A model generated the notes under the pieces. That model was not told the origin of the DNA, ran no database searches, and saw only the letters and a list, made by a program, of their open reading frames with translations. From Achromobacter sp. B7 (GTDB lineage: Bacteria; Pseudomonadota; Gammaproteobacteria; Burkholderiales; Burkholderiaceae_B), in contig NZ_CP032084.1 in assembly GCF_003600685.1 (NCBI RefSeq), forward strand, positions 3,596,001-3,660,000: a stretch of DNA of 64,000 bases, in the 5' to 3' direction. This document shows positions 8,036 to 25,800 of this stretch, one piece after another. Within the stretch, counting starts at the first letter, position 1. The number at the start of each line of letters is the position of its first letter. The position numbers and the translations under genes were made by a program.

Positions 8036-8620
8036 TCAGCCCTTAAGCTGCCGCCCTTCCAGGCTCCACAGTTGCGGATCGCTGGTCGACACCCCCACTG
8101 CGCCGTGCCTCATGGCCGTGGCAATGTCCGCCTGGTTGCAGACAAAGCCCGACGCCACGATGGGCGGCAGGGCTTTCAGGTCTTGGGGGGCCATGTGCGC
8201 CAGCATCGGCGCCGGCATCAACTGAACCAGGTTGGGGTCGCTTTGTTCCAGCGCCTTGACGCTGCGCGGCCAGGTGGAACGGTCGGTCACAAACACTTTT
8301 TGCATCGTGACCATACCGGCACGGTTGGCTCGCTGAATGGTGGCCACGCGGGTTGAAACCAGGCTGGCCACGCCGATATCAGCCAGGTATTCCACCCCGC
8401 CCTTGTCCTGCGACAGGCCTTCGCAGCTGTCGATATTGACGATCGCGAATTTGCCCGCGCGGTTCAAGGTGGCGATGACCGGCGCCAGCTTGCGCAACTC
8501 AACGTTGGCCACGATGCCGATCTCGGCCACGCTGCCCACGAACGTGTTGATTTGCTCAAGCCCATACAGCGTCGCAATGACTGGATGACGCGCCAGGCAT
8601 GCCCCAAATGACCTATCCAT
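8036..8620 (-). CDS. glpP: Glycerol-3-phosphate-responsive antiterminator GlpP
   Basis: 194 residues, the length of Bacillus GlpP (192). The family signatures are present: the barrel segment FAIVNIDSCEGLSQDKGGVEYL, the IISTR equivalent SLVSTRVATIQRA, then TMQKVFVTDRSTW, VQLMPAPML, ASGFVCNQADIATAMRHGAVGVSTSDPQLW. In Bacillus GlpP binds glycerol 3-phosphate and the leader mRNA to prevent termination before glp genes. Here it is the last gene of the glycerol operon, two bases after the oxidase gene. A leader hairpin with a T-tract stands at the front of that operon. Confidence 0.88.
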   Translation of the reverse strand: MDRSFGACLARHPVIATLYGLEQINTFVGSVAEIGIVANVELRKLAPVIATLNRAGKFAIVNIDSCEGLSQDKGGVEYLADIGVASLVSTRVATIQRANRAGMVTMQKVFVTDRSTWPRSVKALEQSDPNLVQLMPAPMLAHMAPQDLKALPPIVASGFVCNQADIATAMRHGAVGVSTSDPQLWSLEGRQLKG

Positions 8621-8622
8621 GG

Positions 8623-10185
8623 TTATCGACTTTCCTGACCATAATGGCGTTGATCGCTCAAGCCCAGCTTGCCGGGATTAAGAATGTTCTGCGGGTCCAA
8701 CTGGCGCTTGACCGCAAGCAGCACGTTAAAAGCGCTACCCAGCGATTCCTGCATGTACGGCGCCCGCAGCAGGCCCACGCCGTGATGATGGCTGAGCGCC
8801 GCATTGTATTTAATCAGCACGGCGTTGGCGGCATCCCATGCAGCGCGATACCACTGGGCGCGCCGCTCCACCTCGACGTCGCCGCGCAACGAAAAATACA
8901 GGCAGGCCCCGTCGACGTAAGCATGCGACTGGTGCGCGGAACCCGCCAACGTGCCGGGCACCGCGTTCACCGCCGCCACCACTTCACTGTAAATGGCGGA
9001 CAGGTCGCTCCAGCGGCCCGACATTTCAAGCGTGTCGGCCACGAACCCCGGGCTGCGCTTGAAGCCCTCGGCGCTCTTGCCCGTCAGATAGCGCGTTTCC
9101 AGCCAGCGTTCAAAGATGGCGTCGCCGTCCAGCTTTTCGCCCAGTTCTTCGCAGACGCCTTCGCTGATCTGCATGACGGCGTCCACAATCTGGCGTGCGC
9201 CCTCGTCGGCCACCAGCAGCACGTTAAGGTCGGGTCGATTGAACTGCACCCCGCTTTCCAGTTCGTCATACAGCCGCAACGCAGCCGGGTTGGCGCCGCG
9301 CTGCATGATCTCGCGGCACGCGTCCAGGCCGATGGCGAATGTCTTGAAACCGTACGCTATGGCGCGGCCGTAATCGGGCAGGCGATGCAGCTTGAGGCGC
9401 AACCGCACGATCACGCCCAGCGTGCCTTCAGAGCCGATGAACAACTGTTGCAGGTCCGAGCCCACCGCCGCGCGGGAATAGCCGCCCACCGTGATCAGGC
9501 TGCCGTCGGCCAGTACAACGTCCATACCGAACACCATGTCTTCGATCTTGCCGTAGCGCGTGGACAACTGCCCTGCCCCCCGGCAAGCCGCCCAGCCTCC
9601 CACCGTGCTGATGCCGAACGACGACGGCCAATGGCCCATCGTCAGCCCGTATTCATTCTGGATGGTCTGTTCAAAGACGTCGCCAAACATGCCCGCTTCC
9701 ACTTCCACGATCTGGCTTTCGCGGTCCACGCCGATCAGCTGGTTCAGCTGGCAGACGTCCAGCACGATGCCACCGCGCACCGGCAAGGCGGCCCCGGTGA
9801 CATTGCTGCGCCCCGCCGACACCGTGACCGGGATGGCTTCGGCGTTGGCGTAACGCATGACCGCCTGCACCTGCTGCACCGATGACACCGTCACGATCAC
9901 CGCCTGCGGCGTAGCAGGCTTGCCGCCGGTTTCCGACACCATGGACCCCGCCCACCAATCGCGCGTCCAGGCGACGACGTCAGCCGTGGCCGTCATGACG
10001 TTGTCGGCCACGTGCCGCAGGGCATCGACCTGCGCATCGCTGACGCGCACGGGGTCGCGTTGCAGGCCGGGTTCGGTGGCAGCGCCTTCGTCGGTCAAGG
10101 TGGCGGCATAGGCAGGCGGCGTGTGTGCGCCCACGACGTAATTGCCACGGTTGTAGCCGCGCTTGATGGCTTCTTTGCTGATCAT
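8623..10185 (-). CDS. FAD-binding oxidase (AGPS/GlcD-like, PCMH fold)
   Basis: 520 residues. The FAD-binding PCMH domain spans about residues 90-270 (AVIVTVSSVQQVQAVMRYAN, PVTVSAGRSNVTGAALP). The C-terminal FAD-oxidase domain ends with LDPQNILNPGKLGL. The segment LSHHHGVGLLRAPYM resembles alkyldihydroxyacetonephosphate synthase rather than lactate oxidases. Its ATG overlaps the glpD stop (ATGA), so the two are translationally coupled. In this operon it probably oxidises a glycerol-related or 2-hydroxy-acid substrate, but the exact substrate is inferred. Confidence 0.82.
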   Translation of the reverse strand: MISKEAIKRGYNRGNYVVGAHTPPAYAATLTDEGAATEPGLQRDPVRVSDAQVDALRHVADNVMTATADVVAWTRDWWAGSMVSETGGKPATPQAVIVTVSSVQQVQAVMRYANAEAIPVTVSAGRSNVTGAALPVRGGIVLDVCQLNQLIGVDRESQIVEVEAGMFGDVFEQTIQNEYGLTMGHWPSSFGISTVGGWAACRGAGQLSTRYGKIEDMVFGMDVVLADGSLITVGGYSRAAVGSDLQQLFIGSEGTLGVIVRLRLKLHRLPDYGRAIAYGFKTFAIGLDACREIMQRGANPAALRLYDELESGVQFNRPDLNVLLVADEGARQIVDAVMQISEGVCEELGEKLDGDAIFERWLETRYLTGKSAEGFKRSPGFVADTLEMSGRWSDLSAIYSEVVAAVNAVPGTLAGSAHQSHAYVDGACLYFSLRGDVEVERRAQWYRAAWDAANAVLIKYNAALSHHHGVGLLRAPYMQESLGSAFNVLLAVKRQLDPQNILNPGKLGLSDQRHYGQESR

Positions 10186-11816
10186 TGTTCGTCTCCCATG
10201 AGTATGGATTTTTCGTGCTTGATGGCAGCCAGGTAGTCGTTCACCTGCTGCGCGATGGTGGCGGGCGGCAAACCAAGTTCCGCCTGCAAGATCTGTCCGA
10301 CGCGGCCGGCGGCAAGCGCGGAGGCGTCGCGCGCCATCAGGCGCGTGCGCATGCGCCTGGCCAGCACGTCTTCAACGGTGCCGGCCATTTCATGGCGCAC
10401 GGCGTAAAGCACCTCGGCTTCGGTGTAGGGCAAGCCGTCGACAATCGGCGTCAGCAAAGCCGGCGACGCCTGCATCAAGTCGCTGACAAAGCGCGCCTCG
10501 GTGCCATAGCGTTCGCCCAGATGCGCCGACATGCCGCCGGACGCCACGATGGCTTGCGGGTCGTATCCGGCGGCTCCCAGCAGATAGGCCTTCTTGGTCT
10601 GGCAGGCATTGCGCTGCCCCAGCACCTGTTGCGCGGCGTCGATGGTCTGTTCCGCCATATGCCGCGACGTGGTCAGCTTGCCGCCCACTATCGTGACCAG
10701 CCCGTCGCCGGACACGCGGATTTCGTGGTTGCGCTTGATCTCCAGCGTTTTGCCCCCGGGCGGCGCCACCAGCGGGCGACAGCCGGCGATGCTGCCCACC
10801 ACGTCTTCGGCTTGCAGATCGGTCTTGAGCGCCGAGCGCGCGCCTTCCAGCAGGAAGTCCAGTTCGCGCCGCGTGCAATACACGTCGTCCAGGTTTCCTT
10901 CGTAGTCTTCGTCGGTGGTACCCAGGTAAGACACGTCGCCCCAGCGCGTGATCGTGGCGCGCCGGCTGCGACCGGGCACGGGAATGGTCACCGTGCAATC
11001 GTTGCGGACCTTGATCCAGGGCACCGCCACGTGCACGCCCTTGGCCGGGCGCACGTGCAACACGGGTTCATCGCCTTTTTTCGCCCCGGTCCAATCGCGC
11101 AGCCAGACGCCCGTCGCCATGATGACGACCCGGGCGCGCGCGCGGATTTCTTTGTTGTCCGCGTGGATGATCGCGCCATCCACCTTGCCGTGCGTGTCAC
11201 GCGTGACCTCTACCGCCTTCGCATGATTGGTCACCGCCGCGCCGTGAAAGGCGGCGGTACGCGCCACCGTCAGCGTCAGGCGCGCATCGTCGACGCGGGC
11301 GTCGTAATACAGGAAACCGCCCAGCAGTCCGTCTTCCTTGAACGTTGGGCAATGCGACAGCACTTCGGCCGCCGTCAGCTTCTGGTGCAGGATGCCCTCG
11401 CGCCATCCGCCTGCCACGTCATACGTCCACAGCAGGCTTTCAAATGCCTTGGACAGGCGCTTGTCGAACACCCCGTCGCGTTCCAGGATGGGAAACAAAA
11501 ACGGCAGACGCTGCACCAGATGCCGCGCGTTGCGCCGCAGCCGTTGGCGTTCATGCAGGGAATGGCGCACCAAGCCCAGGTTGCCCTGTTCGATATAGCG
11601 CAAGCCCCCATGCACCATCTTCGAGGACTTGGACGAGGTGCCCGAGGCGAAGTCGTCCTTTTCGATCAACGCCACGCGATAGCCGCGCAAGGCGGCGTCC
11701 AGCGCGGCATAGGCGCCGGTGATACCGCCCCCCACGATCAGGATGTCGAACTGCTCGCTGCCCAACCGATCCAGCTGTTCGTGCCGGTTCAGGCGCAGGG
11801 GTTCGGTGCTGGTCAT
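10182..11816 (-). CDS. glpD: Aerobic glycerol-3-phosphate dehydrogenase (FAD)
   Basis: 544 residues starting at ATG 11816 (MTSTEPLRLNRHEQ), with AGGAAGGA upstream; the open frame beyond it overlaps glpK and was not used. The N-terminal FAD-binding site reads ILIVGGGITGAYAALDAALRG. The GlpD family block DDFASGTSSKSSKMVHGGLRY follows. It oxidises glycerol 3-phosphate to dihydroxyacetone phosphate and reduces quinone at the membrane. The C-terminal helical domain (VLYAVRHEMAGTVEDVLARRMR) is intact. Its stop overlaps the start of the oxidase gene. Confidence 0.93.
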   Translation of the reverse strand: MTSTEPLRLNRHEQLDRLGSEQFDILIVGGGITGAYAALDAALRGYRVALIEKDDFASGTSSKSSKMVHGGLRYIEQGNLGLVRHSLHERQRLRRNARHLVQRLPFLFPILERDGVFDKRLSKAFESLLWTYDVAGGWREGILHQKLTAAEVLSHCPTFKEDGLLGGFLYYDARVDDARLTLTVARTAAFHGAAVTNHAKAVEVTRDTHGKVDGAIIHADNKEIRARARVVIMATGVWLRDWTGAKKGDEPVLHVRPAKGVHVAVPWIKVRNDCTVTIPVPGRSRRATITRWGDVSYLGTTDEDYEGNLDDVYCTRRELDFLLEGARSALKTDLQAEDVVGSIAGCRPLVAPPGGKTLEIKRNHEIRVSGDGLVTIVGGKLTTSRHMAEQTIDAAQQVLGQRNACQTKKAYLLGAAGYDPQAIVASGGMSAHLGERYGTEARFVSDLMQASPALLTPIVDGLPYTEAEVLYAVRHEMAGTVEDVLARRMRTRLMARDASALAAGRVGQILQAELGLPPATIAQQVNDYLAAIKHEKSILMGDEQ

Positions 11817-11857: not shown

Positions 11858-13399
11858 TCATTTGTGCAATGCCTCCTGGTTGTCTTGCTTGAACTGTTTG
11901 ACGTGGCCCAATTCCGACCCCACCCGGGCGTGCCACAAGGCGCGGCGGCGACGACGTTCGTCGGCGTCAACGGCGGGCCGAAACACGGCGTCGGTCACGA
12001 TGGTTTTGCAGGCCTCGTGCAATGACGGCCACAGCAAGCCCGCCGAGCCCGCCAGATACGCGATGCCGCGCAAGCTGGCGCGATCGGCCTCTTGCATGCG
12101 ACGAATCGGAATGCCGATCAAGTCCGCTTGAATCTGCAACAAGGGGTCGCTGCGCGACAGGCCGCCGCCCACGACCAGTTCGGACACCCGCACGCCGGAG
12201 GCTTGCTCGTCCGCTTCGATGCAGCTGGCCACCGAATGCGCAATGCCTTCCAGAATGGCGTAGGCCACTTCGGCCTGCGTCGTGGCCATCGATACGCCCG
12301 TCAGCGACGCGCGGGCCGCGGCTTCCATCCGGGGCACGCGCAGCCCGGTCAAGGCCGGCACGAAGGTCACGCCGTTCGACGCGTTCACCGTTTCTGCCAA
12401 CGCGCTGATCTCGTGGGCGTCCTTGAACCATTTCAGCTTTTCGCAGACCCAGTTCAATGCCGACCCGGTTGTTGCCACAAAGGTTTCGACCGCGAAGTGC
12501 GACACGCCTGACTGACGCCGGGCCGTCATGGTCAACGACCCGTCGGACATGCCGGCTTCCAAGGGAGGTTCGGTGCCGATGACCAGGTCCACGAAGCTGC
12601 CCGTGCCATGCACACACATCGCCTGTCCCCGGTTCAGGCATCCCAGGCCGATGGCGCCCGCGTGCTGGTCGCCGGCCGACGCCAGGATTGGCACGTCGAT
12701 ACCCAAGAGCTCCGGACGAGTTCTACCGAAATCATCCGCGTCCTGGCGCAGGGTCGGCAGCAGCTCGTGCGGAAAGCCAAGCTCCTGAATCCACTCCAGG
12801 TAGTAACGATGGTCGGCAAGCACGTACGCGCCGGCGGAGGTCGCGTTCGTGGGCGTGGTCACGCATTCGCGCCGCTGCGAAAAATGCCACAGCAACCACG
12901 TGTCCACGGTGCCGAAGGCCAAGCGCTTGTCGCGCCACGCCTGGGCAACAAGCGGTGAATCGCGCAGGTGACGCGCCGCCCAGAGATACAACGAGCGCAC
13001 CCCCACCGGCCGACCGACGCGCTCTCGCAACCGGGCGTCCCATTCCGGCGCCAGTTGGTCCAGTTCGTCGACAAAGCGCGTGTCTTGCCAGACCATGGCC
13101 GGGACCAGCGCACGCCCTGTCTGCGTGTCCCACAGCACGGCCGTGGCCCGTTGTGTGGCCAGCGCCAGCGCAGCAATTTCCTGCCCCTCGGCGACCGCTT
13201 GTGCGATGGCATCCCGGCAGACCTGGACGGTGCGGTCCAGGATGTCGTTAGCGTCCTGCTCCACAACACCCGGCCGGGGCGAGTCGACATGCAGCGCCAC
13301 GTATTGCAGGCAAGATACATGGCCGTGCTGAGACACCGTGGCCGCCCGCGTGCCGGACGTGCCCTCGTCTATGGCCAGAATCACTTTGTTGTTTGTCAT
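11858..13399 (-). CDS. glpK: FGGY carbohydrate kinase, glycerol kinase-like
   Basis: 513 residues from the ATG at 13399, which overlaps the transporter stop (ATGA). It has the actin-like kinase fold: phosphate-1 loop ILAIDEGTSGTRAA, ALATQRATAVLWD, a VWQDTR substrate block, FGTVDTWLLW, the catalytic Asp region ILASAGDQHAGAIG, and HGTGSFVDL. These match glycerol kinase (ATP + glycerol to glycerol 3-phosphate), but the sequence is clearly diverged from E. coli GlpK, so a related polyol remains possible. The GlpD and GlpP neighbours support glycerol. Confidence 0.82.
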   Translation of the reverse strand: MTNNKVILAIDEGTSGTRAATVSQHGHVSCLQYVALHVDSPRPGVVEQDANDILDRTVQVCRDAIAQAVAEGQEIAALALATQRATAVLWDTQTGRALVPAMVWQDTRFVDELDQLAPEWDARLRERVGRPVGVRSLYLWAARHLRDSPLVAQAWRDKRLAFGTVDTWLLWHFSQRRECVTTPTNATSAGAYVLADHRYYLEWIQELGFPHELLPTLRQDADDFGRTRPELLGIDVPILASAGDQHAGAIGLGCLNRGQAMCVHGTGSFVDLVIGTEPPLEAGMSDGSLTMTARRQSGVSHFAVETFVATTGSALNWVCEKLKWFKDAHEISALAETVNASNGVTFVPALTGLRVPRMEAAARASLTGVSMATTQAEVAYAILEGIAHSVASCIEADEQASGVRVSELVVGGGLSRSDPLLQIQADLIGIPIRRMQEADRASLRGIAYLAGSAGLLWPSLHEACKTIVTDAVFRPAVDADERRRRRALWHARVGSELGHVKQFKQDNQEALHK

Positions 13400-14853
13400 C
13401 GCGAGGCTTTCCCAATGGCGGGGTCCAGGGCAGGCAGCACGGCGTCGTCCTTGAACTGGGGCGCGTCGGCTTCGTTGTCCGGGTTGATGGGGGTGCGGGT
13501 GGGGTCCCACTTGATCGTGAAGCAGATGATGCTGGCGATCAGCGGCACGATGGAGAGAATCAGGAAGGTCTTTTCAAGGCCGTAGTTTTCGCGAAACAGC
13601 GGAAACACCAGCAGTCCGATCGCGGCCCCCGTGGAGCCCAGCGCGCCGATGATGCCGTTGGCGCCCGCGCGAAGTTCGCTGCGGAACGACAGCGACGACA
13701 GGCTCTTGCCGTTGGCCCCCGGCCCGCCCGAATGGAACAGGATGAACAGCGACGGCACCACAACGGCCAGCCACAGCGGCATCTTGCCGTGGAAGGTACC
13801 GAGGATCAGCAGCATCAGAAACACCGCGGCAAAGCCGAATGCCGACGCCCGGCGCAGGCCCAGCTTGCGGCCGATGTACGGCGACAGAAAGCCGCCAAAA
13901 ATGCCGAACACGTTGAACACCAGCGCGCCGATGGTGGCGAAGACGAAGTCCTTGCCGAACAGCGCGGCGCTGATCAAGGGCAGATACCAGCCCACGGCGA
14001 AATACTGGATCGACTGGCCGATCTGGACCGTTGCCGCCAGGATGGTGCGCGGCAGGTAAACGCCACGAAAGATCAACAGCACGTTGGCAATGCCGCGCCT
14101 GGCCTGGTTGACCACCGGCACACGCTCGTGCATCGGCGCCGCCGCGAACGGCTGCCCGTAGATGCGCGTCATGGCGCGCGCCGCCTGCTCGACACGCTCT
14201 TTGCGGGCCAGCCAGATCGGGCTTTCCACCATGTAGCGCATTTGCAGCAGCAGGATCACGACCGCGAAGACGGCGGTAGCCGCAACCGAATAACGCCAGA
14301 TGGAATCGCCCACATCCCATGAGAAAAACAACAGCGCCAGCAGCAGGTTCGTGCACACGGCCGTGTACCACATGCCCTGCCAGGTATTAAGGCGGCTTTT
14401 GAATTTAAGCGGGGTGAATTCGGCCAGGACGGCCATCGCGATGGCGAAGTCGATCCCGTAGGCGGCGCCTACGAAAAACCGGCCGACCAGAATGACTTCA
14501 AAGCTGGGTGCAAACATCACCAGCAGCGCGCCGATGACGGCCAGGAATTTTGCGATGACCAAGGGCCGGATCCGGCCCCAACGATCCGCCATCCAACCGC
14601 CGATGGGATTGAACGCAATGGCCACCCACGCGGCAAACGAGGTCATCAGCGCGACTTGACCGGCCGCAAGGCCCAGGTCGCGCGTCATGGGCCCCAGCCC
14701 CGCGCTTAACGCGGAGTTGGCAAACGCATCCAGGAATAGTCCACCCAGGGCCAGCCACCAGATCAGGCCAGCCCGCCCGGTGATACCGGGGCGTGAGTCG
14801 ATAAAAGCGATGACATCGTCGATGCCACGTATTTTTACGGTCGATGATTGCAC
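13396..14853 (-). CDS. MFS transporter, first gene of the glycerol operon
   Basis: 485 residues beginning at GTG 14853 with AGGAG upstream. Twelve hydrophobic segments and sugar-porter/metabolite:H+ symporter motifs are present: GGWMADRWGRIRPLV between helices 2 and 3, GRFFVGAAYGIDFAI in helix 4, and AEFTPLKFKSRLNTWQG after it. It probably imports the operon's substrate (glycerol, glycerol phosphate or a polyol) by proton symport, taking the place of the GlpF channel. It is first after the promoter and leader hairpin. Confidence 0.82.
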   Translation of the reverse strand: MQSSTVKIRGIDDVIAFIDSRPGITGRAGLIWWLALGGLFLDAFANSALSAGLGPMTRDLGLAAGQVALMTSFAAWVAIAFNPIGGWMADRWGRIRPLVIAKFLAVIGALLVMFAPSFEVILVGRFFVGAAYGIDFAIAMAVLAEFTPLKFKSRLNTWQGMWYTAVCTNLLLALLFFSWDVGDSIWRYSVAATAVFAVVILLLQMRYMVESPIWLARKERVEQAARAMTRIYGQPFAAAPMHERVPVVNQARRGIANVLLIFRGVYLPRTILAATVQIGQSIQYFAVGWYLPLISAALFGKDFVFATIGALVFNVFGIFGGFLSPYIGRKLGLRRASAFGFAAVFLMLLILGTFHGKMPLWLAVVVPSLFILFHSGGPGANGKSLSSLSFRSELRAGANGIIGALGSTGAAIGLLVFPLFRENYGLEKTFLILSIVPLIASIICFTIKWDPTRTPINPDNEADAPQFKDDAVLPALDPAIGKASR

Positions 14854-14906
14854 AGTCGTCTCCTCTTGGAATTATTTCTGTAAGAGGTCGACGCAAACTG
14901 CGCGCA

Positions 14907-14937
14907 ATAAAAGACCACCCTACAGATGGTCTTTTAT
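14907..14937 (-). terminator. Leader terminator hairpin before the glycerol operon (candidate GlpP target)
   Basis: Perfect 11-base inverted repeat, ATAAAAGACCA and TGGTCTTTTAT, around a 9-base loop. Read on the minus strand it is a stem followed by UUUUAUU, i.e. an intrinsic terminator, beginning about ten bases after the predicted start of transcription and ending about 50 bases before the transporter start codon. With glpP in the same operon, the natural reading is antitermination control. A DNA operator for a repressor is the alternative. Confidence 0.7.
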
Positions 14938-14953
14938 CTAAATCTGTGCGGTG

Positions 14954-14982
14954 ACTTTATGGGCTGGGCAGAGGGGTGTCAA
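14954..14982 (-). promoter_or_regulatory. Sigma-70 promoter of the glycerol operon
   Basis: On the minus strand the -35 box is TTGACA (14977-14982), the spacer is 17 bases, and the -10 box is TAAAGT (14954-14959). Transcription would start near 14947, just before the leader hairpin. Confidence 0.7.
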
Positions 14983-15340
14983 GCCTTGCGGGCATCAGGA
15001 TAAACCCTGTTCCGCGCGGCATATCGGGCTTGATTAACGGAGGCGTTGGGAAAGTATCCAAAGCGCTGGAAAAGTATATGGAACGCGGGGTTTTTATATC
15101 TTTTTCTTCTTATTTTTCAATGACTTGCAATAAATATTTAAGCTGTCAAACTACGCCCGCTGTTTGATCTTGGCTTCACCGTGCGGGCCCGCCGATTCCC
15201 GGCCCCGCCCCCCCGCCCGATTCCCGAATAACAAAAACACATCGTGGCGCGACGTGGCATACACGCGCGCCATGCAGGCGCACGCCTGTTCGCAATACCC
15301 ATGTCCATCGCAACCACATCGTTTTACCAAGGAGAAACCC
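14983..15340. other. Intergenic region, AT-rich, no gene seen
   Basis: No ORF here has a ribosome site or plausible composition. The part from about 15085 to 15150 is much richer in A and T than the rest of the host DNA and may carry the promoter of the small plus-strand gene at 15341. I could not fix -35 and -10 boxes there. Confidence 0.4.
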
Positions 15341-15577
15341 ATGCGCTTAATCACCGATCAAGAACTCAGCAATATGTCGACGGAAAACAAGCGTCGTCGC
15401 CATCAAGAACTGGACAAGAAATTGTCGGTGGCTGCCGATCGAGGCTGGGCATGCGTGCCGCGCATCGAAGCCAGCCGCGCCAAAGTCCATGCCGCCATCC
15501 TGATGGACGTGGAATTGGGCCGCGATATCGAACCCAGAACCGAAAAGCGTCGCGACCGCATCAAGGTCAAGAACTGA
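15341..15577 (+). CDS. Small charged protein, 78 aa
   Basis: The ATG at 15341 follows AAGGAG at ideal distance, so translation is well supported. The product is highly charged and helical (MSTENKRRRHQELDKKL, RTEKRRDRIKVKN), with no membrane segment and no domain I recognise. It is monocistronic between the glycerol operon and the phage attachment region. A stem-loop follows 14 bases after the stop. Confidence 0.6.
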   Translation: MRLITDQELSNMSTENKRRRHQELDKKLSVAADRGWACVPRIEASRAKVHAAILMDVELGRDIEPRTEKRRDRIKVKN

Positions 15578-15590
15578 TAGCGGATTGAAC

Positions 15591-15661
15591 GCCGTTGGTG
15601 CACCCCGGGGATGCATTCCGGGGATGCATTCGGGTAGTTAGCTAACCGGGGCACCAACGGC
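15591..15661. repeat. Stem-loop with a 13-bp tandem repeat in its loop
   Basis: Arms GCCGTTGGTGC-A-CCCCGG (15591-15608) and CCGGGGCACCAACGGC (15646-15661) pair with one bulged base. Inside, CGGGGATGCATTC occurs twice in tandem (15606-15618, 15619-15631). There is no T-tract. It may close the transcript of the 78-aa gene or be a protein-binding site. Confidence 0.5.
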
Positions 15662-15706
15662 GCCGGCGCCAGGCCATCTACTGTGTGCGGAGGAATGCGG
15701 CCAAGA

Positions 15707-15836
15707 TGGGGCTGAAAGACTGCAAATTCTAGTTGTTATGGGCAGTCAATCGGCACCCACCATTCCCGCTAAGCCGTTGATTCAAAAGCGCCTTGCGGGC
15801 ACTTAGCACGGCCCCTGGGGGCCAAGCAACGGCTTT
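15707..15836. repeat. Host flank resembling the phage arm next to the other attachment site
   Basis: This stretch aligns along nearly its whole length with 55520-55626, with small gaps and by eye about 70 percent identity. It includes CAGTCAAYCGRYCACCCACC and TTCCCGCTAARCCGTTGATT. The similarity ends in the identical 31-bp core. It looks like either the old tRNA 3' flank, also carried by the phage, or the relic of an earlier related element. Confidence 0.6.
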
Positions 15837-15867
15837 CAGTTGTATGGTGCGAAGGAGGGGACTCGAA
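15837..15867. repeat. attL core (31 bp)
   Basis: Identical over 31 bases to 55627-55657, where the same bases are the 3' end of tRNA-Leu including its encoded CCA. Here the rest of the tRNA is missing. This marks the left junction of the prophage. Confidence 0.9.
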
Positions 15868-15900
15868 AAGCTAGCATCGGCGCGGCTTCCCGGGGATTTT

Positions 15901-15917
15901 GGGGCCAATTTGGGGCC
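15901..15917. promoter_or_regulatory. Candidate integrase arm sites, left end
   Basis: Two GGGGCC motifs at 15901-15906 and 15912-15917, 11 bases apart and each preceded by a T-tract, just inside attL. The same motif occurs three times just inside attR. Spacing close to one helical turn suits integrase arm-type binding. Confidence 0.45.
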
Positions 15918-16066
15918 ACTCGATCAAACTTCGGCGGGCACAATTCCCAGTCCCCTAGCGATTCCCCAGTCGGTCAGCATCGCTCGCCAATGACGCCGTG
16001 GCGTGGCCATCCATTTTAGCGGCATGGGGCAACCTCATATACTGGGCGTTCAATAGCGAGGGTTCT

Positions 16067-18515: not shown

Positions 18516-19034
18516 CTAGCGCGATCGCGCTTGGCAAGCCTCCAGCTGCGCGGTCACTCTTTGGATCCCGGCCCGGAGGGCGAAATAATCCGATCGAGCA
18601 CCGGGATCAAGTTCGGCGCGGGCTCCATCACCCACGCGGGCGCCGGCTCCGGTTTGGGGCAATCCACTGCTGGCGGGAGAGCAGGTGGCAGCGACGTGCA
18701 GCCGCTGGCGCCCAGCATCAACGTCAGCACGCAGAGCATCGTTTTGTACTTGCGCATTGCGCATCCCTCCGTAGGCGGCCCATTCGGCCTTGGCGTTCCG
18801 TTCGTTGATCTGGCCAACCTCGGCCACGCGGCGCTCCAGGATCTCGCGGGCCTGGCGCCGCGACTCGGCGACTCGGGCCGACTGATCGGCCTTCATCGCT
18901 GCGACCTCAGCGCCATACCGCCAGCCCTGTACCTTCCACGCAGCGCCACCGGCGACGATGGCGCCCGCCGACAGAGCTGCGGCGTACCCTTTCCAGCCCC
19001 CAAACGCGCCCGTCAGCTTGGCCAGCGGGTTCAT
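18516..19034 (-). CDS. i-spanin (Rz-like)
   Basis: 172 residues: an N-terminal membrane segment (GYAAALSAGAIVAGGAAW), then a long helical periplasmic part with a coiled-coil look (ESRRQAREILERRVAEVGQINERNAKAEWAAY). Rz-type spanins join an outer-membrane lipoprotein partner to fuse the two membranes in the last step of lysis. The partner Rz1 gene lies inside this gene in another frame. Its start overlaps the endolysin stop (ATGA). Confidence 0.8.
   Translation of the reverse strand: MNPLAKLTGAFGGWKGYAAALSAGAIVAGGAAWKVQGWRYGAEVAAMKADQSARVAESRRQAREILERRVAEVGQINERNAKAEWAAYGGMRNAQVQNDALRADVDAGRQRLHVAATCSPASSGLPQTGAGARVGDGARAELDPGARSDYFALRAGIQRVTAQLEACQARSR
18554..18757 (-). CDS. o-spanin lipoprotein (Rz1-like), nested inside Rz
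   Basis: 67 residues starting MRKYKTMLCVLTLMLGASGC: a signal peptide with lipobox LGASGC, predicted to be cut before Cys20. The mature part is proline-rich (SLPPALPPAVDCPKPEPAPAW), as in lambda Rz1. It is wholly embedded in the Rz gene in a different frame. Confidence 0.85.
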   Translation of the reverse strand: MRKYKTMLCVLTLMLGASGCTSLPPALPPAVDCPKPEPAPAWVMEPAPNLIPVLDRIISPSGPGSKE

Positions 19035-19531
19035 GGCACCACCTGGGCGACGGCCTGGCGGTAGAGGTCTGGCCAGGTTTGTGGGTGCGGCTTGCCAGGG
19101 ATCCAGGTGCGCAGGTACAGCGCCCAGGCGGCATCCGCGTCACCCACAGCCGGCAGGCGGCCGGGATCGCTCCATAGAAGCAGACGCGCCAAGCCTGCGG
19201 CCAGCACATCGTCGTTTTCGATTGCATCCCAGATAGCCGCATCACGGGCCGGAACGCCGCGCGCTTGATACAGAGCCGCCGCGGCTGCCTTGGTGGCGGC
19301 GTGCAAGCGGACGCCATGAACCATGCCCCCGCCCTGCTCTGCCTGCCAGAAGCTCTTGGCCGGCCCGGTCGGGCGCGGCGGGTTGCCCACGATCTGGCGG
19401 CGATGCTCGAACCGGCTTTCCTGCAACCCAATGGCCAGCAGCATCACGCGCGCCGCCGGCGTGTCCATCTTGGCTGGCAGCAGCGCCAGCGCCGGGTTGA
19501 TACCCGTCTTGGTGATCTCGGAGAGGTTCAT
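19031..19531 (-). CDS. Putative endolysin (transglycosylase-like)
   Basis: 166 residues from ATG 19531. It lies between holin and spanin genes with ATGA overlaps on both sides, the classical endolysin position. The segment MLLAIGLQESRFEHRRQ contains a Glu in a helix resembling the catalytic site of lytic transglycosylases (xQESRF), and the C-terminal half is Trp-rich (WDAIEND, WALYLRTW). There is no signal peptide, so it needs the holin. Assignment rests on position and this motif. Confidence 0.7.
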   Translation of the reverse strand: MNLSEITKTGINPALALLPAKMDTPAARVMLLAIGLQESRFEHRRQIVGNPPRPTGPAKSFWQAEQGGGMVHGVRLHAATKAAAAALYQARGVPARDAAIWDAIENDDVLAAGLARLLLWSDPGRLPAVGDADAAWALYLRTWIPGKPHPQTWPDLYRQAVAQVVP

Positions 19532-19806
19532 TGCTTCGGTGTCCTGATGTGCTTGGCCGTCACTGCGGCCACGTAGAAGGCGGCGGACGCAGCGAGGGCA
19601 GCATCGCCCGCGCTGGCCCATCCCGCCACGAAGACCCGGCACGCTGCGCCCGTCGCGGTAAGGCAGACTGTGGCCAGGCCGATGCGCTCCAGCGTCGTGT
19701 CGTTGATCGACCTCGCAAAGACCGCGAGCGCAGCACCGCCCGCAACTACAAGCCAGCAGACGAATGCCAGCACAGCCCACAAAGTGATATAGATCTTGGT
19801 ATCCAT
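19528..19806 (-). CDS. Holin-like membrane protein, 92 aa
   Basis: Starts MDTKIYITLWAVLAF; hydrophobic segments at about residues 6-32 and 45-80 predict two or three membrane helices with a charged C-terminus (TAKHIRTPKQ). Directly upstream of and overlapping the endolysin gene. Expected to form the inner-membrane lesion or act as antiholin for the neighbouring protein. Confidence 0.7.
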   Translation of the reverse strand: MDTKIYITLWAVLAFVCWLVVAGGAALAVFARSINDTTLERIGLATVCLTATGAACRVFVAGWASAGDAALAASAAFYVAAVTAKHIRTPKQ

Positions 19807-19807
19807 G

Positions 19808-20116
19808 TCAGGCTCCTTTGCCGCGAACGCGGTCAAGTACTGCTTGCCACAGGGCACCGATGGGCGCTTCCTGCACGGCCTGCCACATACGCGACATGAT
19901 CGCCATGCCCAGGAAACCGCAGAGGAAGCCCGACAGGCCCTCGGGAATCCCGAGGAACTGCGCCAGCCACGGCGACCCGTAGTAGGCCAACGCGGCCCCG
20001 GTCGCGGCCATGCTGGCCTTCGCCGTCCGCGATCCTTGTAGGAACCGCATAGACACCATCGCGCCAATCACGCCGGCCAGCTTTGCCGCGAGGGCGTCGA
20101 AATCTTGGATGTTCAA
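19808..20116 (-). CDS. Second holin/antiholin candidate, 102 aa
   Basis: Begins at TTG 20116 with AGGGGA upstream (MNIQDFDALAAKLAGVIGAM). Hydrophobic stretches at about 12-22, 35-55 and 58-75 (LSGFLCGFLGMAIMSRMW) suggest a membrane protein of the phage holin type. First gene of the lysis cassette, 20 bases after a terminator. Which of the two proteins is the holin cannot be told. Confidence 0.65.
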   Translation of the reverse strand: MNIQDFDALAAKLAGVIGAMVSMRFLQGSRTAKASMAATGAALAYYGSPWLAQFLGIPEGLSGFLCGFLGMAIMSRMWQAVQEAPIGALWQAVLDRVRGKGA

Positions 20117-20135
20117 TCGCGTCCCCTATAGACGT

Positions 20136-20158
20136 AAAAAGGCCCGCTGATGCGGGCC
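20136..20158 (-). terminator. Intrinsic terminator before the lysis cassette
   Basis: On the minus strand GGCCCGC-ATCA-GCGGGCC is followed by TTTTT. It lies between the tail genes and the first holin gene, so late transcription must read through it. Confidence 0.8.
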
Positions 20159-20214
20159 GCTATCCTAAATCTGTGAAAAAGATAAAATCCCCTCCTTCGA
20201 CAAGCGAGGGCGAC

Positions 20215-21006
20215 ATGGCTATCCCCTACCACCGGAAGTTTCCTGTATATGACTTTTGGAAAGGATTGTTCAAAGGCAAAGTGCTGATTCAGCGCAAGCT
20301 TTTCGGACATCTCAAGGAGCAGGTGAAGTCGTGGCCGAAGGAAAAGCAATACACACACGGGTATTTCTACCAAGGCCTAGAAGAACTTGGGATTACTGGT
20401 GGCAAGCCAACCGGTTTTCGCTTTAAGCAGTACGACGTCGATCAGATTCTGAATAACGCTGACATTCTTGATATCGGCAGTAACGCTGGCTTTGTCGCCG
20501 TTTACTGTGCCTGGCGGGCCAAGTCCGTCACAGCGATCGAATTGAACCCGCATCTCAACCGCGTAGCCCGCGACACCGCAAAGCACTTTAAACTGAGCAA
20601 TATGGAGGTCATCGACGGCGACTTCTCCACGTTCCAAAGCGACCGAAAATACGATGTGGTCCTGTCGTTCTCGAACCACCACACCATCGATGGGAACCTT
20701 GACATGGGGTTCGAGAACTACATCAAGCGGATCGTTTCGTTTCTTCGCCCCGGTGGCCACCTCCTATTCGAGAGCCACAATGTTTTCGCGGAAGGGAAAG
20801 GCGGAATGGGTGACGATGGCGACATGGAACACAAGGTCGCCATCATGAACAAGTACTTCACCATTGAGCGGTACCGCATGGTGAATTGCTTCCTCAAGCA
20901 CGGCATCGAAGATCTGGACAAGCTCTTTATCGTCGCGCGCCTCGCTGACGATCCGGAACCCGTCGACTTCAAGCTTCCCGAGGCGATCAAGAAGTACGCC
21001 TACTAG
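20215..21006 (+). CDS. SAM-dependent methyltransferase (prophage cargo)
   Basis: 263 residues from ATG 20215 after GCGAGGG. Class I methyltransferase fold: motif I ILDIGSNAGFVAVYCA at about residues 85-100, acidic end of strand 2 in VTAIELNPHLNRVA, motif II VIDGDF, and DVVLSFSNHHTI (motif IV region), then FLRPGGHLLFESHN. The target is unknown; the fold alone does not separate small-molecule, sugar or protein substrates. It is on the strand opposite to the late genes, between fibre and lysis modules, a common cargo spot. Its stop overlaps that of the fibre gene. Base composition looks poorer in GC than the neighbours. Confidence 0.8.
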   Translation: MAIPYHRKFPVYDFWKGLFKGKVLIQRKLFGHLKEQVKSWPKEKQYTHGYFYQGLEELGITGGKPTGFRFKQYDVDQILNNADILDIGSNAGFVAVYCAWRAKSVTAIELNPHLNRVARDTAKHFKLSNMEVIDGDFSTFQSDRKYDVVLSFSNHHTIDGNLDMGFENYIKRIVSFLRPGGHLLFESHNVFAEGKGGMGDDGDMEHKVAIMNKYFTIERYRMVNCFLKHGIEDLDKLFIVARLADDPEPVDFKLPEAIKKYAY

Positions 21007-21719
21007 GCCGGGGCCAGAACGGTAATCGTGCCGTTCCCGCCCATCGCCTTCAACGCGCCATTTTCCACCCAAAGCTGAACCACCCCAGCAACCGGCGCAA
21101 TTGGCGTTGTGCCAACACCGATAGCCACCCCGCCAGTCATGCCCGTCCCGGCCTTGGCGGTTGGGCCGATCAGCATGTTCCGCGTCTCCGATGAAGTGAA
21201 TCGGACGGCTCGCGTCATGCCCCCTGCACCACCCGTTAGGATATCGAGATTGTTCTGGCCGGGGGCCGTGATCCGGGCAGTGGGTGTTGCTCCCCAGTAA
21301 AGGGCGAAGCTGCCCGCACCATCCTTTGCTGGATACACGTCACCGTTATCCTTGCGCACGTTCAGGAACGCATTGCACTGTGCCGGGATGCCGAAGCCCG
21401 CGAACATCTTCCAGGTGTTGCCGTCGGCGGGATCGTAGCCATGCGACCAGTGGTGGGTGGATCCTTGCTGGTAGCCAAACCACGCAGGTTTCCCATGATT
21501 AGACTCGGCGTAAACCCCCATCTCCCCGCCGTCGTTCTCGAACTCAACCCGCACTACTTGGTCAATCGTGCCACGCTTCCAGAAATGGAAGTCACAGGCA
21601 TAGTCTGACCATTTGCCGCTACCAGCAGGCACTCCGCCGTGGGCGGAGATCCAGTCGGCAGGGTCCTGCATTAAGATGACTTTGTACCCTTGAGGGTCTT
21701 GAACCGGTGTGATAATCAC
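21003..21719 (-). CDS. Putative tail fibre/receptor-binding protein, 238 aa
   Basis: GTG start at 21719 six bases after GGAG. The product has no membrane segment and is rich in Gly, Trp and aromatic residues (CDFHFWKRGTIDQVV, YQQGSTHHWSHGYDP), with a C-terminal Gly/Thr-rich repeat-like part (GTGMTGGVAIGVGTTPIAP). Position behind J and the adjacent fibre genes supports a distal tail or receptor-binding role. Confidence 0.6.
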   Translation of the reverse strand: MIITPVQDPQGYKVILMQDPADWISAHGGVPAGSGKWSDYACDFHFWKRGTIDQVVRVEFENDGGEMGVYAESNHGKPAWFGYQQGSTHHWSHGYDPADGNTWKMFAGFGIPAQCNAFLNVRKDNGDVYPAKDGAGSFALYWGATPTARITAPGQNNLDILTGGAGGMTRAVRFTSSETRNMLIGPTAKAGTGMTGGVAIGVGTTPIAPVAGVVQLWVENGALKAMGGNGTITVLAPA

Positions 21720-21737
21720 GGCGGACTCCGAGTTCGA

Positions 21738-22163
21738 TCAGGCGCGGACCTGTGCCGCGCGTTGGAACAACTGAACGACGTAGTTCTCATCCCAGCCGCG
21801 TGCCGTGGCCAATGCGCAGATGGCCGCACTAGAGTTTGAAAACACGGCGGAGGTTTCCAAGGCGAGCTTGTGCAACGGTTCCGCCTCCTGTTCGCCCCAC
21901 TCGAGGACGGCGCTGAGCTCGTTCAGTTCGAGCAGCGCCCCGAATAGCTGGAAGCGGGACACCTGAATGTCCCTGGCGGGAGAGGGACCGCCCGCACCTG
22001 CCGCTTCGTCGCGAACCCAACCCGTTTGATCCCACTTCAGACTGAAGCGGTCTTCAAATTGCGCCTCATCGAGAGGCACAGCGCCGACAGGAACGGCGTC
22101 CACGGTGTCATCATTGTGGGCGCTAACAACGCGCCCTTCTTGGTCAACATAAGCAAAGCGCAT
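21738..22163 (-). CDS. Tail fibre-associated protein, 141 aa
   Basis: Starts MRFAYVDQEGRVVSAHNDDT at ATG 22163 after AAGGAG. The N-terminal half is beta-like and the C-terminal half helical (FQLFGALLELNELSAVLEWGE). It lies between two fibre genes, the usual place for a tail fibre assembly chaperone; that role is inferred from position. Confidence 0.55.
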   Translation of the reverse strand: MRFAYVDQEGRVVSAHNDDTVDAVPVGAVPLDEAQFEDRFSLKWDQTGWVRDEAAGAGGPSPARDIQVSRFQLFGALLELNELSAVLEWGEQEAEPLHKLALETSAVFSNSSAAICALATARGWDENYVVQLFQRAAQVRA

Positions 22164-22164
22164 T

Positions 22165-22860
22165 TTAAGACTCCTTAATGATTTCAATCGTCGCGTAAAC
22201 CTCGGACGTGCTCACGTTCACAGGACTTCCCAAACCCGACGACACGGACTCTTGGCAGTAGTGGCGTAACTCGAAAACCTTCGGCGACGTCAATACAAGG
22301 CGACCCTGCACGAATGAACGCGTCATCGACGTTTCCCCTGGCGTTGCCGCGAACGACGAAGTGTTTTCCGAGGTACCAAACATGATGCTTCCGCTGTCCG
22401 AAACGCTGTAGAGCCGTGCCGTATGAAGGTTGACGCCATTAGCGGGGGAGCTCGCGGAAATCCTGTAGGTGCCCGCAGGCAACGTTATCTGGGACGAAGC
22501 CAGGGACGCCCCGGTGATGGTGTTAGCTCGGATCGTATTCAGCGCTCGAACCGAGAACGTGCCAGCGACTGACGCGCCGGCACTCATGCCGACGGCCTTT
22601 TCTTCAGTTACCAGCATGTACCCTGTACTGCCTGACGGGAATATCTCTCCCAGGACTATCCACGCCGTATTCGCGGCATTTCGGCGCTTCAACAAGCCCG
22701 AAGCAGTGTCCGCCCATTTCGAGAATGGCCAGGCATACGCAGCAGGGTCAGTCGTTCCAGAAAATTCAGTCGCGATTGCCGAAAGTGCAGCGTTTATGGC
22801 CGGTATGCCCACGATGCCAGGCAGTGGCGGGGTAGTCGAAAGTTGCGGGTTTGCTTGCAT
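22165..22860 (-). CDS. Putative tail fibre/appendage protein, 231 aa
   Basis: N-terminal Pro/Ala-rich region (PPLPGIVGIPAINAALSAIA), then WADTASGLLKRRNAANTAWIVLGE, a segment common in short phage appendage proteins that attach to the tail tip. The C-terminal part is a beta-rich domain (ITLPAGTYRISASSPA ... FELRHYCQE) resembling TNF-like/C1q-like phage tips. It follows J by one base. Confidence 0.6.
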   Translation of the reverse strand: MQANPQLSTTPPLPGIVGIPAINAALSAIATEFSGTTDPAAYAWPFSKWADTASGLLKRRNAANTAWIVLGEIFPSGSTGYMLVTEEKAVGMSAGASVAGTFSVRALNTIRANTITGASLASSQITLPAGTYRISASSPANGVNLHTARLYSVSDSGSIMFGTSENTSSFAATPGETSMTRSFVQGRLVLTSPKVFELRHYCQESVSSGLGSPVNVSTSEVYATIEIIKES

Positions 22861-22861
22861 A

Positions 22862-25800
22862 TCAATATCCCTGTGCTATCCAATTAATTCGTCTTTGAAC
22901 TGCGGTCGAACCGTTCATGATCGCGATGTCGAACCCCTCTTCATCTGTTGTCGTCTCCAGCACTACCGATCGATCTCCGGCCTGAGCATCCAGCACTGTC
23001 ACCTGCACGTTGGGCCTCGCATGAAACGTCTTCGGGAATGTGACCCGCAACCCAGAAGTCGGCACAAGAACTGCCTCAGCCCTCTGCACCAAATCAGGCA
23101 CATCAATCGTCCATTCAAACTTTGTGACAAAGGGGATCACCTTTGGATCCGACGTGGCTAGGAGCAAACGAAGGTCGAAGTACCGCGCGTTGATCAGCCC
23201 GGGCACATAATCCACCCAGTCGCCCCACTCGCCCGCGACCTGCGCGGAGCGAATCTGTGGGCGCAGCGTGATGGCTTGGCGTGCAGATCCATTCAATAGA
23301 TCGGCCACCGCCAGCAGATCCGAAGACGTCAACAAGTCATCGTCCACGTTGAACGCCAACAGATCCGTCGTCACATCGATGCGGACCGGGGTAACGAATC
23401 CGACGTCTACCTGGTCCGTCCCAGCTATGGCGTACATACCGGATTCGGCCGGCCCACCCAGCCACAACAGGTCCGGTTCCGCAAGCAAATCCGAACTTGC
23501 AAGCAGATCTCCCTGAGGCGTCAGCGTGAGAACAGACCCGAAGACAGCAGCGCCTTCCGCAACAGTTCCGTGCCATTCCGGCGCTTCGTCGCGCACGATC
23601 AAGACGTTCCGAACAAGCACCGCTCCTGAGATGAGCAATCGGGCGGGCGGCCCATACAGCACTACCCCGCTTGACAGACGGAAGCGAGCCGCGACCCAAT
23701 ACATGGCGTTCCCAACTGCAAGGATGTCCGTACTGTCGGTGGTCGCCACAACACTGGCATTCGTCCACGTGTCCCCGATTCGTATTTCGTAGGCCGGCTC
23801 GCGGACATCCGCCACCCTGCGCCAGGTTAGGACAGTGAGGCCGTCTCGAAATACGCTGGTCAGGCCGTTCACCGCGGGCAGGGGGACATTCAACCCCTCG
23901 ACCACATATTGCTGGCGGTACGGCGTACCGATGCTGAGCTGGTTTACCGGGCGAACGGTTGCGACAATTACGTCACCACTCTTCGCTTGGACCGTCGCCT
24001 GACGCTCCATGGTGGTGGTCGGGTTCTGCGGCACACCGTTGATGCTGTAGTTGAGCTGGACTCGATTGGCCGCCGACAAGACCCACCCGATCTGGACGTC
24101 GATCAGATCCGATGCGACATTGCGAATGGACTCCGAGAACGTGACGGAAAACACAATGCCGCCCAGCAGCGCGCCATCCCTTGGAGGCGTGTACGCGTAC
24201 GGATTGGATTCGCTCAAGTAATAGTTGTAATCCTCATCTGTAGCCTCGAATCGGATTCCATCGCCAGCAGGGGCCACGCCAGTTATTTTGAAGCGGCGTC
24301 CTGGCGTAGTGATTGGATCAAACTGCCAGGCCCAATCGAACGGCGAATAATCCTCGTACCCTGGGTCGCCGGGCAACGGGAAGCCAGCGAGCGGCGACAC
24401 AAGCTTGAGCTCAGTGACCTTATCGCCCACTTCCGACACAACGTTGCCGACACGCATGTTTCCGTGGGGGTCACGCAGCAGAATGATGCCGTCACCGTCG
24501 GTGGCCACGCCCTGGGTCAGGACAAGCGTCGGCGTGGCGCCCCCGTGCGAACCCGGCGCAAGACGACCGGAGTAGCCCCACACGGTAAGGTCGTGGGAGA
24601 AGCTCACCACATCACCGCGCGTGCAAACCAGGCCCTCTACGTCCGTTTCCCAGGTGATCTTACGGCGCCGAAACACTTGACTGGCCGCGATCAAATTCGC
24701 CTCTCGGCCCGCCATGTTGCTGTTCGTGCAGCCGTCCAGATCCAATTGAAGCGGATTGTTGGTCGAGGTCGCGCCAGGCACCTTTACTCGCACTTCGCCC
24801 ATGGTCCAGCCAGCGTCTTTATCGACGAAGTTGACCACGACTTCGTCAACCGTGCCCTCATTAAGATAGGCTACTTTGAATGATCCGGCCTTGATGTTGA
24901 ATGGCCCGAACATGGCGGTAATTGGGAGCGCTTCGGCGTCCCAGATAACTCCCAGTTTTCCGGTTTGGTAGGACATCGTCGCGCGCCCGGCACGAGCGAT
25001 GATCTGCAACACCCCGGCAGCGCTCATCTTGCGATCCAGCACATAGTCAAAGGTCAGTTGCTTCTGATCGCACCATGCCGCCCAAGCCTTGATGCCCTCG
25101 ATGTCAATTTGAGAGTCGCTTAAGCCGCCGCCAAAAATGCGATTCCCAACTGAGCTAAATCCGCCACGGGCGAAGTATAGGAACCACCATGCTGGGTTAG
25201 AAGTCGGCAGGAAATCCCACGCCGAGCCGGTCCAGACGGAACACCATGCCGAAGCGATAGCGCTAAACTCGTCAACCGCACCATTCAACTGCCCCGTCGC
25301 CTTGATTCGAAGCGCAGCGCGGCATTGACCGGTGTAGTCGGCGGAGTCCCTCTGAAAGGCCAGCATCTGGCTCACAGCAGTCTCGTTCGACTCGCGCGAA
25401 TCGTTGATGTCCGCCGTTACCTTCATGACCCGGACTTCGTACTGGCCTTCTGGGACTCCCCAACTGATTGCGGCGCGTATGGGTTCCTGCCTGGAACCGA
25501 AGAACCGATTCCCTCGTGCACCGGGCGTAATGAGCGGATCCGGCGCCATGCCCTGCCAAGGCTGACCCAATTGATACGGGTGCGGCTTCCATTGCCATTG
25601 CCCCGTGCGCACTACCCCAGGCTGATTAGGATCGGGGATCACGAATAAATCGCCCTCAATGTGATCGCCGGGGTTGACACTGCCATACTGGATCTGCGTC
25701 TGCTCAGGGAACACAACTGCCGACCAGTAATGCGTGGCAAAGACCGCCTCGATGGTGCCGTACTCCGTCCAGGCGGTGGCGCCGACACGGCGATATTGAA

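Follow-up and report, generated by a model that had tools for sequence, protein, structure and literature searches.

A leader of about 95 nt, counted from the predicted transcription start, precedes the same five-gene operon ending in glpP at 56 of 58 GlpP loci, and sequence comparison makes RNA-level control linked to GlpP well supported. GlpP, an RNA-binding protein that senses a metabolite, is best modelled in Bacillus subtilis. We judge the chances evenly balanced that the leader is a cis-acting RNA switch, working mainly on translation and gated by the GlpP of its own operon; such a translational switch explains more of the conserved features than a terminator does.

In the window (the whole 64,000-nt stretch of Achromobacter sp. 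B7 analysed here, from a genome that is a single 6.24-Mb contig), all five genes lie on the minus strand at 14853-8036. An MFS transporter gene comes first (13396..14853), followed by an FGGY-family kinase scoring under the glycerol kinase cut-off (11858..13399), a GlpD-like FAD-dependent dehydrogenase of uncertain start codon that scores under the GlpD cut-offs (10182..11816), an FAD-linked oxidase (FAD_binding_4 plus FAD-oxidase_C; 8623..10185) and, last, glpP (8036..8620; PF04309 at 158.8 bits, cut-off 27). NCBIfam gives no match for this GlpP, which is related in sequence to two GlpP proteins of solved structure, 3kts (E 1.7e-13) and 1vkf (E 8.8e-06). The promoter scan found a −35 box TTGACA (14982-14977) and a −10 box TAAAGT (14959-14954) on the minus strand, separated by a 17-nt spacer and with 10 of 12 matches; over 10 kb such sites were not enriched (3 vs 2.9 in shuffles). 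Both the promoter and the five-gene operon ending in glpP stand as the initial annotation had them. From the promoter spacing, the 5′ end of the transcript is predicted at an invariant CAG (14944..14946, minus strand), and the leader (DNA span 14854-14947, minus strand) folds at −32.5 kcal/mol (z = −4.76), none of 200 shuffles being equally stable.

Two further features of the window were seen in passing. Upstream of the leader promoter, 15043-15077 holds two 15-nt direct repeats (GCGTTGGGAAAGTAT), 87% alike and at a spacing of 20, and paired TATACTTTT/GGATACTTTT stretches like them were found by eye in 10 of 22 Achromobacter rows; they are possibly a DNA-binding site for another regulator. 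Prophage genes occupy 18516-26734, including genes for a spanin of Rz type (18516-19034) and, at 22862-26734, for a J-like protein of the central tail fibre, with a plus-strand methyltransferase-domain gene (20083-21006) among the minus-strand phage genes, to which phage families match weakly.

The kinase product was previously taken to be glycerol 3-phosphate, which now appears doubtful. The operon kinase reaches 343.6 bits against a glycerol equivalog cut-off of 590.35, the GlpD-like dehydrogenase reaches 273.7 bits against an equivalog cut-off of 360, and a canonical glpK (712.6 bits) lies elsewhere in the source genome. GlpP relatives elsewhere are also found near an FAD-linked oxidase, together with an annotated kinase in Enterococcus (L132) and, by eye, a kinase-like ORF in L063. 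We infer that the operon GlpP senses the product of its own kinase, possibly a compound other than glycerol 3-phosphate.

Within the genus Achromobacter, PF04309 is present in 22 of 43 genomes. In all 21 operon-bearing genomes other than that of the window, the MFS gene and glpP lie within operon distance of each other. The DNA of these genomes is nearly invariant from the −10 box to the start codon, but not ahead of the promoter or in the −35/−10 spacer. A scan of genomes with an alignment of four GlpP sequences yielded the 58 loci, from Achromobacter, Cupriavidus, Herbaspirillum, Burkholderia, Paraburkholderia, Mycetohabitans, Variovorax, Comamonas, Delftia, Tardiphaga, Methylobacterium, Bradyrhizobium and a few records placed to family or order only. 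The same gene order and strand were found for the five genes at 56 of these loci, and the same 56 have the hairpin motif within 400 nt upstream of gene 1, the exceptions (L121 and L122) being truncated contigs. Three further leaders precede the same operon in Cupriavidus metallidurans CH34 (L131) and in L141 and L142, which belong to the same family as the Tardiphaga locus L118. We took L143, L144 and L145 to be the same contigs as L119, L122 and L121. Of 51 distinct leaders, 45 were aligned in A2, which omits the near copies L072, L074, L075, L077, L105 and L108; A3 is A2 plus L141, L142 and L131.

The promoter is placed in the same way in most of these leaders. In 43 of 48, a −35 box of TTGACN type is followed at 17 or 18 nt by a TA....T hexamer, and another 7 or 8 nt separate the hexamer from the invariant CAG; the hexamer is poor in L111, and none fits this rule in L112, L113, L115 and L116. 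Because of this spacing, the conserved RNA should begin at the first bases of the transcript, at the predicted start.

An RNA model (R1) built from proteobacterial leaders only gave one strong match in each of exactly the 22 of 43 genus genomes with PF04309, including a single match and no second copy in the source genome; six weak matches in the genus were the opposite strand of the same hairpin. Across 399 genomes of the order, PF04309 occurs in five, and R1, run with stricter filters under which weak matches are lost, matched the three of these with this operon (G000, G397 and G421) and not the two with PF04309 in other settings (G331 and G448). A fourth match, in G605 (30.6 bits), was judged false by eye, being a longer-looped hairpin that adjoins a ClpA-like ORF and is not upstream of this operon; we take it to resemble a paired DNA-uptake-sequence terminator. 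In other genera of the family, PF04309 matches in 12 genomes (11 below the cut-off, one just above it, taken with its neighbours) cover short C-terminal stretches and were taken as other proteins, and no GlpP was found in viral contigs. Nor did R1 match at GlpP relatives in other contexts (L060, L062-L065). In L060 and L062, from two 2.2-Mb genomes of the same order, GlpP-family genes lie beside what look by eye like ABC-transporter-like and phosphoesterase- or HAD-like ORFs, an arrangement similar to that on the Planococcus plasmid L147 and maybe a second GlpP context, in glycerophosphodiester uptake. Since the RNA and glpP share one operon, their co-occurrence is not independent evidence; it demonstrates a unit and not binding.

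The first structural element of the leader is a hairpin, P2, about 15 nt from the predicted 5′ end. In the window it forms a perfect 11-bp inverted repeat (14907-14917/14927-14937, with 9 nt between), whose core GACCATC-TGTAG-GGTGGTC (14913..14931, minus strand) contains a loop heptamer, CTGTAGG (14919..14925, minus strand; CTGTAAG in most relatives), that is complementary to a downstream element described below. The initial annotation had staked its reading on conservation of this hairpin in relatives, and the hairpin is kept: 97.5% of 432 P2 cells are paired, against 34-59% for slid versions, and 16 cells have changes on both sides. None of 500 shuffles reaches either the paired percentage or the covariation score of P2, although these measures, here and for the second helix, can rise from relatedness alone; the counting measures are not above shuffles (204 of 500 for doubly changed pairs, 500 of 500 for pair types).

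In the second helix (P3), which lies close to the start codon, a CCUCUU-like sequence is paired with the Shine-Dalgarno region. Its 5′ arm lies in the C element (CCTCTTACAG, 14878..14887, minus strand) and its 3′ arm comprises the Shine-Dalgarno sequence (AAGAGGAG, 14860..14867, minus strand). On the plain alignment A2, 78.4% of P3 cells are paired, which falls short of significance, and the covariation score of P3 is exceeded by slid versions. Because MAFFT shifts the Shine-Dalgarno arm between rows, we set each row in its best-pairing register (A4, 20 distinct arm pairs), a choice that favours P3; in this alignment 82.8% of 180 cells are paired, 23 cells are doubly changed compared with 9.1 in shuffles, and the covariation score is reached by none of 500 shuffles. 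One P3 pair appears as G-C, C-G, U-A and A-U. Two counting measures, of pairs and of pair types, are not above shuffles (247 of 500 and 191 of 500).

The C element can alternatively pair with the loop and 3′ arm of P2. This pairing (B:C) was chosen unprompted by RNAalifold on the 45-row alignment and is paired in 98.9% of 528 cells, against 37-60% for slid versions. Its seven core pairs (columns 30-36 with 109-115) are paired in 336 of 336 cells, and four of the six unpaired cells are one pair in alphaproteobacterial rows. Variation in B:C is nearly all one-sided, to G.U, and no measure sets the pairing apart from shuffles, of which 205 of 500 reach it on four measures and 73 of 500 on the covariation score. 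The P2 loop heptamer has a full downstream partner in all 48 leaders, at a mean chance of 0.065 each in shuffles, and in L120 a change at the position common to P2, B:C and P3 leaves all three pairs intact.

As modelled, P2 plus P3 on the one hand and B:C on the other are mutually exclusive folds. The mean unpaired probability of the Shine-Dalgarno sequence over the 48 leaders is 0.08 in the default fold and 0.51 with B:C enforced. Enforcing B:C raises this exposure in 43 leaders and lowers it in five, all from Achromobacter; the window leader, in which it falls from 0.25 to 0.16, is one of these five among six Achromobacter rows. B:C costs a median of 11.7 kcal/mol relative to the P2 fold, so that either B:C needs help, which GlpP could provide, or only the core between the loop and the C element forms, as a pseudoknot beside P2, a structure that is beyond the reach of nested folding.

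Comparison across genomes supports the operon, the promoter geometry, the leader, P2, P3 and the complementarity between the hairpins, and we infer beyond these that GlpP binds the leader, what its ligand is, that the effect is activation, as in the positive feedback loop proposed by the initial annotation, and that B:C actually forms. By default, P2 (GACCAUC/GAUGGUC) would form first, after which P3 would pair CCUCUU with AGGAG of the ribosome-binding site and keep translation of gene 1 off. When the kinase product, a glycerol-3-phosphate-like compound, is present, GlpP would bind the leader on its conserved 5′ side (CAG...AGAUAAGAGAC); the loop and 3′ arm of P2 would then form a duplex of up to 11 bp with the 5′ arm of P3, CUGUAAG pairing to CUUACAG, and free the Shine-Dalgarno sequence. 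In Achromobacter, where UUUUAU follows the P2 core, transcription attenuation may have been added on top.

The classical alternative is antitermination, in which P2 would be an intrinsic terminator and GlpP with its ligand would bind the 5′ half and let polymerase read through. PMC9604022 describes this mechanism for B. subtilis, in which three promoters each have a GlpP binding site and are closely followed by a terminator that GlpP disrupts together with glycerol 3-phosphate. It would fit a PF04309 regulator encoded within the operon, the UUUUAU after the P2 core in Achromobacter (14907..14912 in the window, minus strand) and the U-tailed hairpins with a 5′ arm starting GAGAC(C/T) at some Bacillota GlpP loci. 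The initial annotation had described a hairpin with a U-tract, of which the perfect repeat is present but the U-run belongs to the 3′ arm of the 11-bp stem and is not a tail following it. In the window, six of the 8 nt that follow the P2 core are U, but the hairpin is absent from the output of the terminator scan. A U-rich tail (at least five U in those 8 nt) occurs in only 7 of 48 leaders, namely all six Achromobacter rows and L099; the other 41 have two to four, and the four-U run is confined to Achromobacter. What these relatives keep instead is the hairpin over the Shine-Dalgarno sequence and the complementarity between hairpins, so the terminator no longer holds as a conserved feature of the leader, and antitermination leaves the conserved C element and P3 unexplained. 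We therefore regard antitermination as unlikely, and a terminator mechanism as at best specific to Achromobacter.

A protein-free riboswitch, in which the 5′ domain itself would bind a metabolite and GlpP would have another task, is improbable. The leader does have what such an RNA would have, namely folds that exclude each other, with a helix over the Shine-Dalgarno sequence among them, and positions that are invariant although they belong to no helix. But the RNA was found only together with the GlpP operon (all 22 cases in the genus, and three of four matches in the order genomes, the fourth being the false one), and a search of window positions 13000-16000 against Rfam 15, at E up to 1, gave no match. 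An outer helix, P1 (5′ CAG with the linker), appears in many single folds, yet it exceeds shuffles (at the 0.05 level) in just 3 of 48 rows and was dropped.

Slightly less probable again is that the leader mainly sets mRNA stability through a hairpin at the transcript 5′ end, with GlpP acting on decay. The distance of P2 from the predicted 5′ end is consistent with this, as is the additional stabilisation of glpD mRNA by GlpP in B. subtilis (PMC7430163), but it would leave the helix over the Shine-Dalgarno sequence and the B:C complementarity without a role. Very improbable is a role of the palindrome as the DNA operator of GlpR or a similar repressor, despite its position just downstream of the −10 box, since P2 variation keeps pairing with many changes as G.U (32 of 432 cells, which spoils DNA symmetry and keeps the RNA pair, vs 11 unpaired) and so suits RNA better than a DNA palindrome, conservation spans the −10 box to the start codon, and a search of the genome with the RNA model gave no second copy.

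An independent check on the translational switch comes from another phylum. A complete five-gene operon lies on an Arthrobacter megaplasmid (L130:5600-12573), with an MFS protein 72% identical and a GlpP 53% identical to those of the window, and its leader was excluded from the alignments and from R1. R1 gave a weak match directly before gene 1 (26.5 bits, E 8.5e-05 for 27,648 bases); as the match in G605 that was judged false outscores it, what counts is its location directly ahead of the operon. This leader differs in most of its sequence, but P2 and a P3 covering the Shine-Dalgarno sequence are present, and the loop and 3′ arm of P2 can form an 11-nt duplex with the 5′ arm of P3 (p = 0.01, 500 shuffles). 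The Arthrobacter operon might reflect either transfer between phyla or a very old module.

We tentatively extend the proposal, as a possibility short of an expectation, to Pseudomonadota and Actinomycetota at large, where GlpP would also switch translation in response to its ligand. It would choose between P2 plus P3 and a strand exchange from P2 to P3 on a previously undescribed leader, with operon, RNA and regulator crossing phyla as a self-contained module that serves a compound resembling glycerol but distinct from it. Among the matches listed from the open-licence literature, none deals with a proteobacterial GlpP leader, and the main text of a Burkholderia cenocepacia start-site paper (PMC4603805) does not contain the words glycerol or antiterminator. 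As the leader is kept in two proteobacterial classes and one actinobacterium, with defined helices and invariant positions, the RNA target of GlpP is directly testable; the proposal also suggests a second output mode for the GlpP protein family and offers a portable pair of regulator and leader.

The system resembles that of B. subtilis GlpP (glpD, glpFK, glpTQ) in having a PF04309 protein encoded with its target genes, an inverted repeat right after the promoter and before gene 1 that is kept in relatives, and genes for a kinase and a GlpD-type enzyme. The 5′ arm of the hairpin also starts GAGAC(C/T)-like, most leaders here reading AAGAGAC(C/T). Unlike B. subtilis, the present system has no conserved U-run or intrinsic terminator in relatives with the same operon, and has the hairpin over the Shine-Dalgarno sequence and the complementarity of P2 to P3 instead; there is one model match per genome where tested, glpP is the last gene of its own target operon, and the kinase and dehydrogenase miss the glycerol cut-offs. 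A scan of seven Bacillota loci (210,938 bases, both strands) for GAGAC(C/T) hairpins gave six matches at five places, four of which adjoin glpP or lie in glp leaders and one of which does not. Four U-tailed hairpins with this 5′ arm were found, in the Cytobacillus glpF and glpD leaders, Planococcus and Peptoclostridium, and none in Paenibacillus L146 or in Enterococcus L132 and L150. The likeness, from few loci and with other Bacillota loci lacking it, is suggestive of a common GlpP recognition site with a different output. The Enterococcus gilvus plasmid L132 (4600-6640) has similar hairpins with U-runs (GGCA..UGCCUUUUUUU) preceding glycerol dehydrogenase-glpP genes and kinase-oxidase genes, which are candidate GlpP targets of a different sequence type.

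Two other systems bear comparison. Loci L063 and L064 presumably correspond to the ygc cluster of Escherichia coli with YgcP (PF04309), and share with the present operon a GlpP-family protein whose neighbours include an MFS transporter of 24-25% identity and an FAD-linked oxidase of 29% identity, L063 also having the kinase-like ORF mentioned above; they differ in gene order and strands, in carrying further genes and in giving neither a tblastn kinase match nor a match to the leader model. TRAP, with its metabolite bound, decides which of several mutually exclusive helices forms on trp leaders, and in one of them the ribosome-binding site is hidden. The choice proposed here for GlpP would be of the same kind, made by a protein family and on an RNA that are both unrelated to those of TRAP.
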